A stretch of DNA of 64,000 nucleotides, from positions 3,968,001 through 4,032,000 of the forward strand of contig JAKZAN010000005.1 in NCBI GenBank assembly GCA_023053545.1, in the 5' to 3' direction. A program made the translations under genes and the position numbers. This DNA is from Lepidurus packardi (lineage: Eukaryota > Arthropoda > Branchiopoda > Notostraca > Triopsidae). The notes below the pieces were generated by a model. The model was given only the letters and a program-made list of their open reading frames with translations. It did not search any database and was not told the DNA's origin. Shown here piece by piece: positions 4,166 through 51,300 of this stretch; positions within the stretch are counted from its first letter, which is position 1, and each line of letters starts with the position of its first letter.

Positions 4166-12592
<8,427 letters not shown>

Positions 12593-40196: not shown

Positions 40197-41724
40197 ATGT
40201 ATTGGAGCAGCTTAGCATTAGTAAAAGACGCATATGAGCTAAGAAAAATCGTCCATGTTTTACCCCCACGTATTTTGTTTCATTTGGCCAGCACAGCTTA
40301 CCTTGCAGGTAAGGGTGTAAGGGTGGTCTCGCACGCAAGACGCAAGGTCACATTTACATTTCACGTGATGGTAAATTTTTGCCTTTATTTATTTGTGTAG
40401 GACGATTTCAGGCTCTGAAGATACTAGTTAGTCACTGGCCGTACTCTACCTTAAACTTTGCAGATCTTGCTCCTAATGTATGTTCACAATGCAGAAAAGA
40501 AAAATCAGACGTAAAGCGTTCACATTCCATCATGCTAGCTGATATTCTTTCTGGTCAGTTTACGGATATTGCTCTGAGATCTCTGCAAAGTGGGCAAACA
40601 TCCTCTTCTTTGAGAAATCTTAATCTTCAAGAACTTCCTCCAAGTAAGATTCCCAACATAGGGTAAACCGACTCTTTTAATATGTATATATAACGCTCCT
40701 CGTACCTCTCTAGTTCAATCTAGAACACTTATCCGATTATGCGAATCCATTACTTCGAAACTTGGGGATGGGAAGAATACAAGGCTACCTCTTGAAGAAA
40801 CTTGTAAGTTTTTTTGTTTTGTTTTTAATATAATAACTTGAAAAAGTTAATGTATAGCTAATATTTGTTGCAGTTACTCTGGCTGTTAATGTCGAACCTG
40901 GCTCAACGGAGAAAGAAATACTTGCTTTGGAAGCGGCTATGAATTGTTGCGGTGGCTCAGACGCCAGGTTTCGGCTTGAGATTAATGGCTGTAAAGCACA
41001 AGGATTTAGTACATACCAACTGTCTCGCTTGCTGAACGCCTTGCCTAAAGTAAGAAGCCCCCTGCCTAGCCTCGAACAAAGGCTTACTACTTTTTTCTAG
41101 TCCTTGATTCATCTTGATCTGGACTATAACAGGTTGGAACGACAAGGGGTGACTGCTCTATCTGAAACTTTGTCCAATTTTCGCTGCTTGAGGAGTCTTA
41201 GCCTCGCTTATAATAATCTGCAATTATTTGACGACGTCACGTGGGCTGGAAGGTTTGGGAGTCTTCTGGCCTCATTTCACCAGCTACAAGGCTTGAACTT
41301 GTCTTATAGCCCGCTTCGAGGTAATCTAATGTTACTTTCTTACTATAGAACTTATGGCGGAAATTTTTGGTAGGAGTACTGGGCTCAGTTTTGAGTAAGT
41401 TGCAAACCCCCTTGACGGCTCTTAGTTTGGTCGGCTGTAAGTTGTCCAGCTTTGACATACATAATTTAAGGAATTCACCACACGCGGCTTCCTTGAAGTA
41501 TTTAGATCTCAGTGGCAACAACTTGCGTGAAAGCTTCTCTACCTTAATAACGCTAATAGAAATCATGAGTCCTAACGTAAGGCAAACCAGACTACTGCTA
41601 GCGCGCGTGAAGATCTAAAATCGTCTCTATCTAGTTGCGGAGTCTGGGAGTTCGGGATTGTTCGTTTATTCCAGATGATTGTCAAACAATTGTTTCCGTG
41701 CTTGGCCGAGTACCTGAGCTTTGA
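40197..41724 (+). CDS. LRRC14/PRAME-type leucine-rich repeat protein
   Basis: Seven exons (40197-40308, 40401-40643, 40714-40803, 40874-41049, 41101-41320, 41374-41576, 41635-41724) join in phase to 377 aa. It matches LRRC14 throughout: the N-terminal LKILVSHWPYSTLNF segment (LRELVHTWPFPLLSF in human) and LRRs such as LIHLDLDYNRL and LRSLSLAYNNL. The signature SPHAASLKYLDLSGNNL aligns with human SPHAAHLKKLDLSGNDL. Human LRRC14 is 493 aa and acts as a Cullin-2 substrate receptor and NF-kB modulator. This copy stops after VLGRVPEL, so the final repeats are missing. Either the gene is naturally short, or a terminal exon has been lost or missed. AATAAA at about 41762. Confidence 0.8.
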
Positions 41725-42233: not shown

Positions 42234-43625
42234 ATGGATTCTTGTCGTGATTTTGATTCCGATTCTTCAAGTGAAGACGAGTCTCGTGAAACAAAACAAA
42301 ACGTAGAAGAGTGGAGTCAATAGCTACACGGACAAGATTTTTATTCAAGGTAGCCCCGGTTTCGGCAAGACCATCACTCATCACTTTTCATTTTCACTCA
42401 TCACTTTTAAGCTTTATGAAGACTGGGTCCAAGCAGCCGATTATGTAAAGCATTTTTATTCAATTAAGGCACATTTCAGTTAAGTGCATTCAAAAGAAGC
42501 AGTTTTTTCTTCAGAGTAAAACAGCGTTCTTTCGTTGCAGAAAGATAGTTTTCGGGAGTATATTAATCATGCTTTAATTCCTCAACAAAAGCGAAATCAA
42601 ACCGACAAGTATTGGAAAGCTCTTGTGCAATTCCAGAACCAGACACTTTTCGTCCTTGACGGCTATGAGGAGCTTGCGGAAAACTTGAAACCTGAGTTAG
42701 AATAGTTAATGTCAGGAACCCTTTTTGGTCAGGTGTTAAGATAGAGAGAACAAAAGGTGCCAAGTTCACAACTCGCAATCTTTCTCGCAAGTCACATATT
42801 CCGGTTTTACATTCCAATCCACTGTGGTCCTGATGTCGCGTTTTTTTTACCCATACAAGCTGAAATGATCTCTTGTAGTACGAACACATTTTATTGTGAA
42901 GAGGTTTGGCAAAGGAGATATCGTCTCTTTTGCCTCTAAAATACTACTCGAATCTCTGGGCCACAAGTTCTATTCCAGCATTGCGGACAATGGCGTGTTC
43001 TGGGAACTAGCGCGGTGTCCATTGTCGTGCATTATGCTGTGTCTGGTTTTCCAGGACAAGCAAGGGACTTTGCTTACTAGCTCTACGCTTCTCTACATTC
43101 ACATAATAATAACGCAAATTAAACGGGCCGCCAAGCGTGATGGGTTAGGTGCAAAAAAGGCGGAAGAGTACGAAGAAGAAAACGAGTGCAGTGTGGTATT
43201 CGGGCAATAGAACACCTTATTGCAACGTTTAGGACAGCTTGATTGATCTTGCCATCCTCCATAAAGAACGTGAATCAGATTTCCAATCAGGAAGTACCTC
43301 GGTCTGTTACGTGCTGGCCCACAGGACATGTCGGGTGTTTCCGTGGAAAGCTTCATCTTACACCTTGGCCCAGCTTCGTTTTTAACCAAAGGCCACTAAG
43401 CTTCATCTAACTAAATTGAAACTGGGTTTCCACAAAACTGCTTCATCGTTAGTCGAGGAGTTACACCAGATTGATTTTGTCCGGTTGGTACAATTGCTAG
43501 CTCGGCATATAACCGTTTGCAAACTGAAAGGACTAACTTTGTTTGACGATGCACCAATAAGCGACAAAGATTTGTTCGCCACCTTTTTAGCCGAATTGCA
43601 AGGGGTTCGTAACTCCGTTGGTAGG
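42234..43625 (+). pseudogene. Decayed NACHT-LRR (NLR-like) paralogue
   Basis: Aligns segment by segment with the intact gene at 44769-48680. The start reads MDSCRDFDSDSSSEDES, then the frame is lost after a TAG. The exon 2 equivalent is missing. The P-loop GSPGFGKT (near 42351) is followed by a 20-bp local duplication. The donor after the P-loop exon has changed from GTAAGT to TTAAGT. The Walker B exon keeps LFVLDGYEEL but has a TAG at 42703-42705. The following exon is open in pieces (WELARCPLSCIMLCLVF) and ends early at 43207, after which only scraps remain. Confidence 0.9.
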
Positions 43626-44768: not shown

Positions 44769-47700
44769 ATGGCATCAAATTCCGACATATCCAGTGAAGA
44801 TGAATCACTTCCCTCTAGCTCTATATTGTCTCAACCAAGTGTCCATGTTGAGGGAAATATCAATGTTTATATGCACGATAACTCTGTGACCTATATTGGA
44901 AACAACGTTAATATTTCGGAGGGATATATGCGAGTAGTGACCAAGCTTTCTCGGGTATGCATTTTATTTATGTTTTCGTTCCAATTTGTTATTAATATTA
45001 ATTAATTACACGATCAGTGTAGATTTTTGTTAATGGCTAATATTGTTAATTATAAGGACGACATCAGTAATGCTTTTGAAGATTTGAAAACATTTTGGAA
45101 GCAGCGTCATAATTCAAAGCAACGCAAAATTGACCCTCATATATGGCCCAATGTTCAGTACGATTTGCAAACCATTTTTACGGAACTGGAATTACATGAT
45201 CGCGAAATGCAAAGAGAGGAAAGCATCAAACTTGAAGACTTGTTTGTTACGGAGGTATTAAACCACGAAGTGTTCTTTTATATTCAGTATTCGATCCGAC
45301 TATATTACAGGACAGCGATCGTGCACAGAAAATATTTGTTGAAGGTAGCCCTGGCTTCGGCAAGACAACGATCTCCCACAAACTTTACGAAGACTGGGTC
45401 CAAGAAGCCGATTATATAAGACAATTCCATCTAGTATTTTTTGTACAGTTGAGGCACATTTCTGTAAGTGCAGAAATAAGTAGTGAGGGATTTGCATGAC
45501 GATGGCTTTATTTCTTTACAGAAAGAGAATTTTAGAGAATACTTTAACCATGCCCTAATTCCGCAAGAAAAGCGAAGTCAATGTGACATGTATTGGACAG
45601 CTGTGACTGAGTTTCAAGAGCAGACACTTTTCATACTGGATGGTTATGATGAATTAACAGATAAGCTGAAACCTGAAATTGAACAGTTAATGGAAGGAAG
45701 TCTCTTTGGTCAGGTATATGATTTTTTTACATATGCGATACCCATTCATTGGCATGTTGTGTGTTTTCTAGGCTACTGTAGTGTTAACTTCTCGTATTTT
45801 GCCAACAAACGCTCGCTTGATATCTTACTGCAGTAAACACGTTATTGTCAAAGGATTCGGAAGAGACCAAATCATATATTTTGCTTCGAAAATGCTGCCG
45901 GGGTCCATGGTAGACAAGTTTTATGAGAGCCTTTCCAATTTCGATGTGTGCTGGGAACTAGCGAAATGCCCTCTTGCTTGCATTATGTTGTGTCAACTTT
46001 TTAAAGACAAGAACGGTGCTTTGCCTGAGAGTTCTACGCAGTTATATGTTCATATGATAAGGTTGCAAATTCGGCGGGCTGCGAAACGTAATAGGTCGAG
46101 TACATACATGGCAGAAGACGACGAAGATGACAGTGAAGAAGAAAACGAGAGCGGAGTTGTATTTGGACACTATGACGTCTTACTACAACGTTTAGGAAAG
46201 CTGTGTTGGGAATGCCTCCTGAAAGACGAGTTTTCATTCAAGCGTGCGAAATTACAAAAGTGGTTCGGCCAAGAGTATTCAAAGCTAATAGATCTGGCCA
46301 TCCTCCATAAAGAAAACGATTTAGACTCCCAGAAAGAAAGTACTTCTGTCACTTACGTGCTGTTTCACAGAACCTTCCAGGAATTATTTGCAGCCTTCTA
46401 TCTGGGAAACTATGTCGAATGTCCGGAGCAGCTAGCTTGTTTGCTAAGACAAGTGATGGAATCACATATTGATTCTTACTATCAGATCGCTCCCTTCATG
46501 GTGGGCTTATTAGGCCAGAAAGCTAGCGTTGTCTTTGACGTTTACAGTGTCACTCGTATAGATAGAAACCTTGCGAATCTTTTCATGCCCGAAATATTAC
46601 CGGATTCCTCATCAGTATTAGACGAGTTAGCGGAACGTTTGAACCATATTTGGTCATGGCAAACTAATGATCACCTGGACAATTCTGTTGGCGTACTGGC
46701 TTTACGAAAGACCTCTGCGGTTAAGATGGCGAATATTGTGCTCGATTCAGATACGGTCATTGAAGACATCTCTTTACAAAAATTTTTTGGTGGCAATTTC
46801 CCTCCTCATGTTCCTGTTACGGCTATTACCGTAGAGCATGATTCTCCGTATAGCTTGGGTCAACTCCGTTTCCAATCCCGCAAACTGAACCTAGCGAATT
46901 TAAAACTGGGCTTTTCTTTATTGGATTCATCCTTGTCCGATGCCTTTTATAGCAACGATTTTACATGGGTGGTTAAGTTGCTAACCCGCCACGTAAACAT
47001 AGGTTCCCTGGAAGGGCTTACTTTCTCTGATGAAGCCGTTAAGGATAGAGATGCTTTCACTACGTCACTTGCCGCATTATGCGACTCTGACAGTGGACCC
47101 GAAAGCTTGGAACTGAGTAGGGTCTAAAAATATGAGAATATAGCTGTTTCTGTTAATGTGATTCTTTTTGTTTTTCAAATAGATTTGAAAGGTACATGGA
47201 AAGTATCAGAAAACATGTGGGATTTTTTAACCCGTGGTTTATCGACCAGCACTCGTTTAAAGAAGCTCGTAATTATCGCCGACGAGTTTTCTGGCGGTGT
47301 TGGGGAATTATCTAGCCTTATTCGCCTTTGGTTCACCTTACTGAACCTTACACACAGCACGAATCTTAGGTCGCTTATCTGGAAGGATGGTTATGGACTA
47401 GAAACTGATAGGCTGTAATGTATCTTTTTTTATTCTACTCTTTGAAGTCAAAATGTTCTTTCCAACTCAGATCCTATACGATACATGAGAAGGGTTGGGC
47501 CCGTCTAACACATGTAAGTTTGCATATTAATGGGAGAATCGATGAGCACAACTGCATACCAATCTTTGAAAGTTTCGCTAGCAGTCAACTAGAGTCCTTG
47601 GATTTAAAGAGCTGGGAAATCTACATAAACGTAACTTTGGTATGCATTATTACATTATTTCTAACCAAATGATTCAAATAGGAAGAGCACGTACCAGAAG

Positions 47701-48680
47701 TTTTGATTTGTTTGCAGAACAGCGTACTAAGCAAATTAAATTTCGTTAACTGCACAGTGTTTATCGTGTATCCATCTGTGTTGGAAAGTTCGGATATGGA
47801 ACATTTTCAGTTCCCGACTGAGGGAAGTGTATTACCAAAGTTAAAAATACTAAAGCTTGATAGAACGATTTTTACAGCCGTTCCGGCTAATACTAAAGCG
47901 GTACCAGGCCTACCTTTAAGCCAGCCCTATGATGCGAGCCTTCGAACCCTACACTATTTCCGGTCTCAAATCAAATCATTGCGTCTTGACTCTTCTTTTT
48001 TGTCGATGGGATTTGGAAATGATACGCGGCTCTATTGGTTTGCATTTATACAGCGATTGCCAGATTTTTCCCGACTGACTTCTCTACACCTTGAGATTGA
48101 GTGGGCGATGAAATTTGGTACCATCCTCCTTTTAAGCACTTACTTCGTTATTAAGAAAATATTTCGTGTGTATTTTTCTTCAGATGTATTCACCAATGAC
48201 ACATACCTTCGTGAACATGTGCCTTCTGCATATGCAACGGAGATGGTGTCATCGCAGTACTTATCGGAAGCTCTAAGCGCTTCAAACATAACAGATATTT
48301 GCATTACTTTGGAAACCGCTTCACTAAAAGACGAAGCACAGCCGCAATTGATTTGGATTGTCGAAGAAATACTGCGAGGATTGCCTAATGTCCAACGCTT
48401 AGGTATTCCAAGCACGAGTTTCGTATCGACGGGGCAAAGCATAGCTGGGTTACTGCGGCAATACTGGAAAGGAGAGGAACTATTTCTAAATATCGACCTT
48501 GGCTTCTTTGGATCCGGTACAAGTTTCATTCACGTTTTAATTCATGACTTGCAATTCGGAAACAAAAATGACATTGAGAATTTCGATGTGCAATATTGCT
48601 GTAATATGGAAACAGACACGAGGGATAAGTCTTTTCATATTGTACGTAAAAGTAAAAGCGATAGTGCGATTCACGTTTAA
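44769..48680 (+). CDS. NACHT-LRR (NLR-like) protein
   Basis: Nine exons (44769-44954, 45018-45254, 45311-45463, 45522-45713, 45772-47116, 47183-47414, 47471-47630, 47718-48117, 48184-48680) join in phase to 1133 aa. The start matches the pseudogene copy's start. The NACHT ATPase shows Walker A GSPGFGKT (residues 153-160), Walker B LFILDGYDEL (228-237), sensor VVLTSR (259-264) and a winged-helix/superhelical part with RTFQELFAAFYL (about 455), the NLR hallmark. From about 560 on there are degenerate leucine-rich repeats (LDLKSW, LRTLHYF, LTSLHLEI). The first 140 residues lack CARD or pyrin features but include an Asn/Ile-rich segment (NSVTYIGNNVNI). By family it would be a cytosolic STAND sensor that oligomerises on ligand. 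Ligand and partners are unknown. Confidence 0.87.
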
Positions 48681-48959: not shown

Positions 48960-51300
48960 AATAATTACACCACTTCTATTAGTCTAGTATCTTTAAGGTA
49001 GTCTACTAGACAGTTTCTTAACTTAAATTGTCGTTCTGGTTCAATTTTCCCTAATCCTAATATATTTTCCATGTTAAAGGTTACTCCGATCTGTTCTACT
49101 CTTCTCCTCCACTTTTCTCTGTCGTATCCGTATGATGAGCAATACAACAAGCTGTGTTCCACTGTGTCTGTTTGTTCCCTACAGTTTCCACATATATCTG
49201 TGTCTTTAAGCTTAAATCTCTTCATCCACCAACCCACCTTTGCATGTTTGCTTCTTATTCTTAAGAGCGCTACGGCACTCTTAAGAATAAGAGTACCTTC
49301 TATTCAGGTGTTCTAGCCATGGTTGCGGTTTGAGAGACATGGCCGCTTGCACCAATTCTTGTTCAGATTGAAGTTTTAGCGTTCTTAAAATTCTCTTTTC
49401 GTTCTTTTCTTTATAAAGTGACATTATTTCTTCAGTTGTTAGTCCTCTATTTATAAAATTTTCTGATCCTTTTCCCAGCTTTGCTGCTAAATCTGCCTTT
49501 TCATTGCCCTTAAAACCCTCGTGTCCTGGCACCCATTATATAGCTACGTTTTTCCCCTTGAGTTTTTAAAGCCATAATTGACCTTTGAATTTCCTGAATG
49601 ACTCAGCTATATTTCTTGTTATCATAATTTTGTATTGCCAAAACTGCCACCTTTGAATCTGTAAATCTTACATATTTGTTTTCCTGTGCTTTGTTTGTCT
49701 CCTTTTCTGTCTACTCTATATTCCTCGTAACCTCTTAAATTAATTTTCATCCCTTCTTTTAGCCATGTTTCACAAATAAAAATAACATCTATTCTCTTTT
49801 TTACATCACTTAAATAGGCTGTTAAAGAATCTACGTTGGCCCTTATGCTCCTGGCATTCCAAAATAAAATGTTTATGCCCTCGCAATCCATGTTAATATT
49901 TGTTGTATAAAGTTTCCATTCCTAGTAACATTTTTTACTTCCTTGCGGATTTCTTCCCATTTCCCTCCTGTCAAAACTACTGAAATTATTTTTCTGACCA
50001 ATCCTCCTACCCAGTTCCCCAAAATCAGTTGTCTCTTTTTCATCTTCTGACTTCTCTTCGTCTTGTTGTCTTTCCTCTCGATTTGTTTGTCTCTCTTTTT
50101 CCTTTTTCTTACCTTGTAATACCTCATTGTAGCTTTGTTTCGCTACTACTAATGTTTTCTTCGCTTTTTCTATTAGTTCTTGAACTGTTCTGTCTTCTTC
50201 TTTTTCTGCTATTACTCCTGTCCTGATGTTATTAACCAATATTTGACTCGTTACGTTTTATGGTCTGATCACCTAATGTGTCAGCTTTTCAATTTGCCTG
50301 ACTTTGGGTCCCTTTGGCTCGTTTAAAAAACTCACAGTTCCTATCCGCTGCAGTATGTTGCTTATTACAGTTTGCACATGTTGGCTCCTTTCCCTCTTTC
50401 TTGTTTTCGCAGATTGTCGTGGCGTGTTCTCCACCACAGTGCCCACATCTATACCTTGCCTTGCAGACATAGCTGATATTCCCAAATCTTTGACACTTAT
50501 GACATCTGATGGGTCTTGGTTCAAAGTGATGAACTTTTATTTTCAGGTATCCTAACTTCAGATAGGATGGCAATGTGCCGTTTTCAAAAATAAGGTGGAA
50601 ACGGCTAGTTTCCTCTTTAACTTTTCCCCCGTTATCTAATGTTCGCTCTTTGTACAGGGCTCTTACCCCGACTAATCCTGCAAAATTCTCTTCCTCGATC
50701 TCCTTTTTAGCCGCCCCGTATATGGTTACAATCCCATGTTGCAGAAATTTAGGTTTGGTTATCCTGGCCTGAACTTTTATTTCCCCTGTCTGTTTCATCT
50801 TTAGGAATCTATCCGTTTCGTCCTGATTGGTCGGAAAAACCAACAGTTCTCCTGCACGCGTTACTTCGATTTTAAAATCTCTCATATTCAAATCTCCCAT
50901 CATTTTATTAATTTTGAAGGGGCTTAGCTTATCGAAACTCTCCTCATTCTTTACTGCTCGGTATGCTACTGGGCATTTCTCCTCCGATTTCTCTAATTCT
51001 TCCTCTGTATCCGTTTCCGTAGTCGAAACCTGTAGTCTTCTACGTTTGCTTCCTACATCAACCTGAGCTTTCTCCCTGCTTTACTTTCTTTACCTTGTTT
51101 TTCCTATAGGAAACCATTTTAAACCCTCCATCTTTTTCTGCATTCTCCGTCTCTAAATCCTGATTTTCGTCCTCCATATCGGAGCTTTCCGAAATCTCAA
51201 CTTCTTCGTCTTCTAAATCTGGTAAATTGTATCTCTGCTCGTCCCCCAGCTCTTCACTAGGCCCTCCACCTCTCATCCCCATACAGTTTATAAAAATAAA
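48960..51300 (-). mobile_element. Internally deleted non-LTR retrotransposon (ORF1, EN and RNase H remnants)
   Basis: Read on the minus strand: ORF1 start near 51282 (acidic N-terminus), a gag-like part at 50289-50903 ending in CCHC zinc knuckles (CHKCQRFGNISYVCKARYRC, CGHCGGEH), and an endonuclease start at 49891 (ILFWNARSIRANVDSL). The next preserved part is RNase H (FTDSKVAVLA; PGHEGFKGNEKADLAAKLG at 49476-49532). The C-terminal zinc motif (ICGNCREQTDTVEHSLLYC) ends near 48968. The reverse transcriptase and most of the endonuclease are gone, joined around 49660-49690. ORF1 and RNase H carry frameshifts and stops. The AT-rich (ATT)n tail lies at 48890-48960. Dead element. Confidence 0.88.

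Follow-up and report, generated by a model that had tools for sequence, protein, structure and literature searches.

In insects, PGRPs are the receptors that sit upstream of IMD, and the amyloid step into IMD is served by the cRHIM of two of them, PGRP-LC and PGRP-LE. In Aedes, both PGRP-LE and IMD carry the tetrad VHIG, and a thioflavin signal is reported in cells overexpressing them (PMC9531809). Here we consider an NLR gene of the notostracan Lepidurus packardi, located in a stretch of 64,000 nucleotides (hereafter the window; positions 3,968,001 to 4,032,000 of contig JAKZAN010000005.1, assembly GCA_023053545.1), whose first exon encodes a RHIM-like, putatively cRHIM-type beta motif. The motif recurs in the NLR family of this genome and resembles a motif in a candidate IMD adaptor.

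In its overall build the gene is familiar. It shares NACHT, HD/WHD domains and a predicted leucine-rich repeat (LRR)-type fold with vertebrate NLRC4, NLRP3 and NOD2; these, by the accounts we drew on, use CARD or PYD, whereas no CARD was found in the genes described here, PYD not having been searched for separately. As in other crustacean NLRs such as LvNLRC of Litopenaeus vannamei, NACHT is combined with putative LRRs and there is no recognisable N-terminal CARD, PYD or Death domain; LvNLRC, however, which we compare by description only, is reported to act via STING and cyclophilin A, and the cited passages mention no RHIM-like motif (PMC12370184, PMC11508797). A preliminary description of the window, made from its sequence, had held NLRs to be missing or rare in insects and nematodes. 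This agrees with their reported absence from Drosophila and C. elegans (PMC11508797), but shrimp NLRs have been described, one of them studied functionally (PMC12370184), and with crustacean NLRs already known the window gene is ordinary in kind. One comparative study describes arthropod NLRs as being without an N-terminal effector domain (PMC11508797, in the passages cited), a reported lack on which a motif common to the NLRs and a candidate IMD adaptor would bear.

It is the first exon that looks new. Two described systems come close to it. With the insect cRHIM it would share a short beta motif with a VHIG-type tetrad and a proposed amyloid step into IMD; here, in contrast, the sensor part is NACHT-LRR rather than a PGRP domain and the amyloid is a presumed one. 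VHIG itself occurs in five NLR first exons, with variants elsewhere and TYIG in the window, the comparison being one of tetrad letters. The second likeness is to fungal NLRs in which, according to the cited accounts, an amyloid-type PP motif hands the signal to a HeLo effector bearing the same motif (PMC12881547, PMC7885112). Unlike these, the present gene is an animal one with LRR-type repeats, and the proposed partner is a Death-domain adaptor, not a pore former. The literature consulted, which did not extend to Kajava 2014 and Kleino 2017, where a mention might be made, describes no animal NLR that bears a RHIM motif.

An intact NLR gene in a family of about 40 loci

The splice model runs from an ATG at 44769 to a stop codon at 48680 and joins nine exons across eight introns of 56-102 bp, all of them GT-AG and consistent in phase, to give an open frame of 3,372 nt; the splice sites are sound and both Walker motifs are undamaged. 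The nine-exon structure first described stands, as do the three motifs named with it (GSPGFGKT, LFILDGYDEL and FQELFAAFYL), each of which was found where it had been placed (Table 1); only the product length needs correcting, to 1123 aa from 1133. That the gene is an NLR, as had been proposed, is borne out by Pfam, which assigns NACHT at 72.4 bits (E 4.9e-20, cut-off 26.7), and by the closest solved proteins in sequence, NLRC4 (E 1.7e-8) and NLRP3 (E 1.5e-5). NACHT is followed by HD1, WHD and HD2 helical domains as in NLRP3, NLRC4 and NOD2. In the predicted structure of exon 5 the terminal alternating strands and helices superpose on NLR structures; they comprise, from exon-5 residue 293 onwards and in an NLR-like position, five units of strand and helix plus one more strand; among the better-scoring matches, structure-based identity to solved animal NLRs is 12-19%.

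The leucine-rich repeats claimed for the downstream part fared less evenly. For the C-terminal 661 aa Pfam returns no LRR family even when E values up to 1 are admitted, but LRR-like spacing is enriched over residues 481-1123 (15 vs 7.0 in shuffles, P 0.003), and exon 5 is predicted to end in the strand-helix units just described. A genome search with the LRR family PF13516 gave no match here and none in any control either. Among relatives, the spacing is enriched in L014 (P 0.007) and L026 (P 0.02), and without enrichment in L013 (P 0.31), L025 (P 0.38) and L015 (P 0.10). Taking sequence and predicted fold together, we regard it as established that the gene is an animal NLR; it is intact, with NACHT, winged-helix/HD2 and probable LRR-type repeats, and we infer that its role is an immune one.

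The gene is not a lone relic, an idea ruled out by the number of its relatives. A six-frame NACHT search of the genome (108.6 Mb, 344 contigs) returned 46 matches, grouped into 39 places, one of which (L031, C6:4.01M) adjoins WD40-like open reading frames (ORFs), as judged by eye, and is not counted as NLR-type. With the window NACHT as query, 72 matches were obtained, which add the places C4:11284562 and C1:2598591. With about 40 loci in two subfamilies, the 'small' sensor family of the preliminary description was an understatement. Some places may be haplotype duplicates, as in two pairs equal in score (C1:41929/C18:21062 and C1:25445/C1:119320). Contig C1 holds 16 of the 39 places in its first 303 kb, and all but one of these 16 are on the minus strand. 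In a phylogeny of 14 segments, an LRR-type group of five separates (the window gene, L013, L014, L025 and L026; 100/100) from the other nine, with L025 as nearest kin of the window gene (87/95) and long branches flagged for the window gene (2.38) and L014.

The decayed neighbour of the preliminary description is real: its pieces are 46-73% identical to the window gene (51-52% in the two long ones), it carries in-frame stops, and residues ~445-600 and the C-terminus are gone. Another family copy, L049, is broken. Together with the long branch of the window gene, decay next door and at L049 would fit a scenario of birth and death within the family, in which the window gene has itself been silenced recently and lacks a function of its own. 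An open frame sustained across nine exons, with sound splice sites and both Walker motifs intact, argues against this, and we consider it highly improbable.

Present-day bacterial or fungal contamination is ruled out because the gene has introns and lies on a 13.5-Mb contig, alongside genes that include, in the same window and by Pfam, an insect-type cuticle protein, WDR3 and a trypsin-type protease; the isolated contaminant contig considered at the outset is thus not the setting of this NLR. A scan of prokaryote genomes with an alignment of six NACHT segments as the query gave two loci among 73 candidate stretches, one in a Rhabdochlamydiaceae bin (22% identity) and one in Streptomyces (26% identity). 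Since this one scan yielded these relatives alone, no close bacterial relative was found; with regard to a conceivable ancient transfer, the two are no more distant than the solved animal NLRs (12-19%, a structure-based figure).

A RHIM-like motif in the first exon

We read the upstream DNA at 22 NLR-type loci, relying for some of them on the ORFs that were listed or that passed a filter. In 15 of the 22 (the window gene, L013, L015, L016a, L017, L018, L019, L021, L022, L025, L026, L027, L028, L029 and L030) the exon ahead of the linker exon carries a short motif of beta type that follows, with some variation, the pattern G-x-V-x-I-x(3-5)-V-x-I-G. The linker exon begins at a phase-0 acceptor in all nine loci checked, but for just three of them is a donor scoring 3 or more listed. 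The G of IG is the sole invariant column in an alignment of 13 motif sequences; the tetrad is VHIG in L017, L022, L026, L027 and L030, and VYIG, VCIG, VSVG, VNIG, VIIG or LHIG in other first exons. There are 11 occurrences of VHIG where composition predicts 1.9, matches in L040, L044, L046, L047 and L048 having been removed beforehand as duplicates, and five of these occurrences are the NLR first exons just listed. When the L013 exon is scored against a profile that excludes it, none of 20,000 shuffles scores as high. In three expanded-type loci, L017, L022 and L027, we also observe a second candidate motif, of type IGTIKLQDGRVLNVGGNIGNQ, upstream of the VHIG exon, and these could be alternative first exons.

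No established domain was found at this N-terminus. Exon 1 of the window gene has no Pfam family listed within E 10, and a scan of seven proteins at the same threshold (six NLR N-termini, from the window gene, L013, L025, L028, L030 and L026, plus the IMD-like protein discussed below), with filters that drop most matches above ~0.1, gave for the NLRs two chance matches far below cut-off and nothing else. CARD and Death domains were likewise not found inside the NLR genes, as the 4 CARD and 11 Death matches in the genome all lie outside them (PYD, DED and TIR were not searched genome-wide). A PDB profile search with the motif returned 0 matches.

Several results nonetheless weigh against reading the motif as a member of a shared amyloid system. 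It is unrecognised in 6 of the 22 loci (the decayed neighbour, L014, L020, L023, L024 and L032, with a match limited to the tail of the exon in L020 and L032) and degenerate in L016b, and the window's own tetrad is TYIG. The six other VHIG occurrences lie in unrelated frames, four being copies of one antisense stretch. Pfam RHIM (PF12721, with its canonical [IV]-Q-[IV]-G tetrad) is unlisted for the seven proteins scanned; elsewhere in the genome it gives two matches below cut-off in unrelated ORFs, which we set aside. Left out of the profile, the window motif is unlisted at E up to 50 and 408 of 20,000 shuffles score as high; the L025 exon, treated in the same way, is not significant either (732 of 20,000). 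The window motif being marginal by itself, the letters contribute no more to the case for exon 1 than its position and the exon structure do. We discarded two further measures. The motif exon has an uninformative dN/dS (0.67 vs 0.50 in the flanks, pseudogenes included), and the loosest tetrad class, [VIL][HQYNSC][IVL]G, occurs 273 times against 274 expected. On balance, a RHIM-like N-terminus is likely to be a real, recurrent feature of the family, with the proviso that, by the test made, the motif is RHIM-like and not a member of the Pfam RHIM family.

A candidate IMD adaptor and the PGRP gap

Death domains were sought across the genome, and 11 matches fell within E 1. C5:3146213 (L045, E 0.76), which ranks among the bottom two, is the last exon of a three-exon gene, modelled as a protein of 217 aa in which an acidic/serine-rich leader is followed by the motif GDINISKAGVLHLGTSYTI and the Death domain. 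Within the leader, TESD directly followed by AVVV may represent a caspase site joined to an IAP-binding motif, as in insect IMD. A profile of 13 NLR motifs, IMD excluded, was run on 8,211 ORF fragments (406,439 aa) from the examined loci, duplicates L047 and L048 included. The profile lists the NLR family, with further copies in L049, L050 and L051. Of the matches that do not belong to the family, L045 leads with 13.6 bits (E 0.022), and the runner-up has 8.2 bits (E 1.1). L045 also ranks first among 605 fragments of the eleven Death-domain loci (13.6 vs 5.9), and 2 of 20,000 shuffles of its ORF score as high. A regular expression applied to 574,256 aa found 13 matches, namely 11 NLR first exons, one chance match and L045, against 1.15 in shuffles.

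These similarities suggest a possible mechanism. By analogy with other NLRs, and as the fold leads one to expect, the leucine-rich part would act as sensor of a ligand or of damage, with the NACHT ATPase driving oligomerisation of the protein. Oligomerisation would cluster the RHIM-like motif at the N-terminus, the clustered motif could then template a hetero-amyloid that takes in the motif of like type from the IMD-like adaptor, and this would start the IMD/NF-kB cascade. Amyloid formation, binding to IMD, the ligand and expression are all presumed in this proposal, and judging from sequence we hold NLR-to-IMD signalling via amyloid templating as a tentative hypothesis with somewhat less than an even chance of being right. 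If it is, it would define an animal NLR class with amyloid templating into an NF-kB adaptor, in parallel to the amyloid NLRs of fungi.

The link to IMD has, however, a number of results to contend with. The Death domain of L045 scores 20.8 bits (E 4.1e-4), just under the Pfam cut-off of 22.6, for which reason 'IMD' is a candidate name only. Once L025 is dropped, the score of L045 is equalled or exceeded by 196 of 20,000 shuffles and E becomes 13 with realignment; the link therefore leans on L025. Without L013 the figures are 3 of 20,000 and E 3.5. Without the window motif they are 4 of 20,000 and E 0.19, which puts L045 (10.6 bits) level with a background ORF (10.5 bits, E 0.2). When the profile is built from a single subfamily, be it the four LRR-type motifs or the nine expanded-type ones, L045 goes unlisted at E up to 50, and genome searches with the single L025 motif or the IMD-like motif returned only themselves. 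The regular expression was composed after L045 had been seen and misses the window's own motif. A PDB search with the IMD-like protein gave three chance matches.

One other explanation is that we are looking at an ordinary NLR of a crustacean. Its N-terminus would be no more than a linker or a beta-hairpin without amyloid function, and it would signal through NACHT itself, much as LvNLRC of shrimp is reported to bind STING. The weakness of the window motif in leave-one-out tests, the failure of single-subfamily profiles to reach L045 and the missing Pfam RHIM match all fit this explanation. It has more difficulty with a motif whose core of G, hydrophobic alternation and xIG recurs in both subfamilies and which resembles the adaptor motif of the same genome. 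We think it a serious possibility, if rather short of probable. Alternatively, the motif might be a true RHIM-like signalling amyloid whose partner is another NLR or a cell-death effector rather than IMD. Fungal NLRs that activate HeLo-type effectors by RHIM-like PP motifs provide a precedent, in the cited accounts (PMC12881547, PMC7885112), and the second motif upstream in three expanded-type loci would suit it, but among the examined loci the IMD-like ORF alone stands clear of background outside the family, and the profile scan, covering those loci and not the whole genome, showed no effector gene with the motif; such a partner seems unlikely to us. A further adaptor candidate, a CARD-Death gene at C4:11.33M, was set aside as neither of its domains is found in the NLRs. 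This CRADD/RAIDD-like gene (L029:3113-4099, C4:11.329M, +) lies beside expanded-type NLR copies on the opposite strand.

NLR-to-IMD signalling would hint at how crustaceans might switch on the IMD pathway without the usual receptors. A six-frame search for PGRP-type domains found none on arthropod contigs of this genome, its sole match lying on the bacterial-looking contig C344, with the limit that a heavily split domain could escape; NACHT and Rel-homology exons were detected by the same kind of search. Daphnia pulex is described as having Imd and Relish and no PGRP (PMC2685406), and the authors of one report conclude that Imd is either non-functional or differently activated (PMC4833078, as cited). 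Shrimp authors have speculated upon a novel receptor (PMC6683665). We consider it possible, at a probability moderately below even, that in crustaceans lacking PGRPs a cytosolic NLR family took over as receptors of the IMD pathway, bearing the cRHIM-type amyloid motif of IMD in the position occupied by a death-fold domain in other animal NLRs. Speaking against this, the scavenger receptor SRB2 has already been proposed as a shrimp IMD receptor (PMC11602452, in the part cited). Four putative PGRP genes are described from three malacostracans (PMC5437397, likewise).

Feature coordinates and surrounding sequence

Table 1. Positions in the window of the NLR exons, the first-exon motif and the decayed neighbour
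Feature	Position	Strand	Basis or remark
Exon 1, acidic/serine-rich leader and RHIM-like motif	44769..44954	+	splice model
RHIM-like beta motif VHVEGNINVYMHDNSVTYIGNNVNI, residues 25-49, in exon 1	44841..44915	+	alignment to first-exon motifs of paralogues
Exon 2, pre-NACHT linker containing PHIWPNVQYDLQTIFTELELHD	45057..45254	+	splice model; similar to SPLPWYPEHTWDIDEVYTELAL exon in paralogues
Exon 3, with Walker A GSPGFGKT (45344-45367)	45311..45463	+	splice model, Pfam NACHT
Exon 4, with Walker B LFILDGYDEL (45627-45656)	45522..45713	+	splice model, Pfam NACHT
Exon 5, NACHT end; helices of WHD/HD2 type, FQELFAAFYL among them (46375-46404); LRR-type strand-helix units starting at ~46648	45772..47116	+	
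Exon 6, leucine-rich	47183..47414	+	splice model, LRR-like spacing
Exon 7, leucine-rich	47471..47639	+	splice model, LRR-like spacing
Exon 8, leucine-rich	47718..48117	+	splice model, LRR-like spacing
Exon 9, leucine-rich, and stop codon	48184..48680	+	splice model, LRR-like spacing
Decayed tandem paralogue	42334-43598	+	carries stops; parts lost inside and at the end; first exon unrecognised

Immediately upstream of the decayed copy, at 40858-41700 (+), lie LRR-rich ORFs of a separate gene, two of which exceed the Pfam cut-off for LRR_1; the gene bears some resemblance to those of LRRC14 type. On the other side, ~300 bp past the NLR stop codon, 48965-51080 (-) holds remains resembling a non-LTR retrotransposon. 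The ORFs of this putative element look zinc-knuckle, endonuclease-like and RNase-H-like, and Pfam finds nothing in the longest of them. Elsewhere in the assembly, contigs C52, C214 and C43 (with undisturbed COX1 frames) and C344 (by its ORFs, the amidase-type match lying there) are bacterial-looking and would represent symbionts or contaminants. Many COX1 matches with in-frame TGA codons, on C1, C2, C4, C5, C6, C21 and C38, are probably nuclear copies of mitochondrial DNA. One nuclear COX1 copy has the look of a branchiopod crustacean sequence. Finally, a long run of the dinucleotide GA at 5453-5912 (+) of the window gives rise to spurious long ORFs in which R and E alternate.
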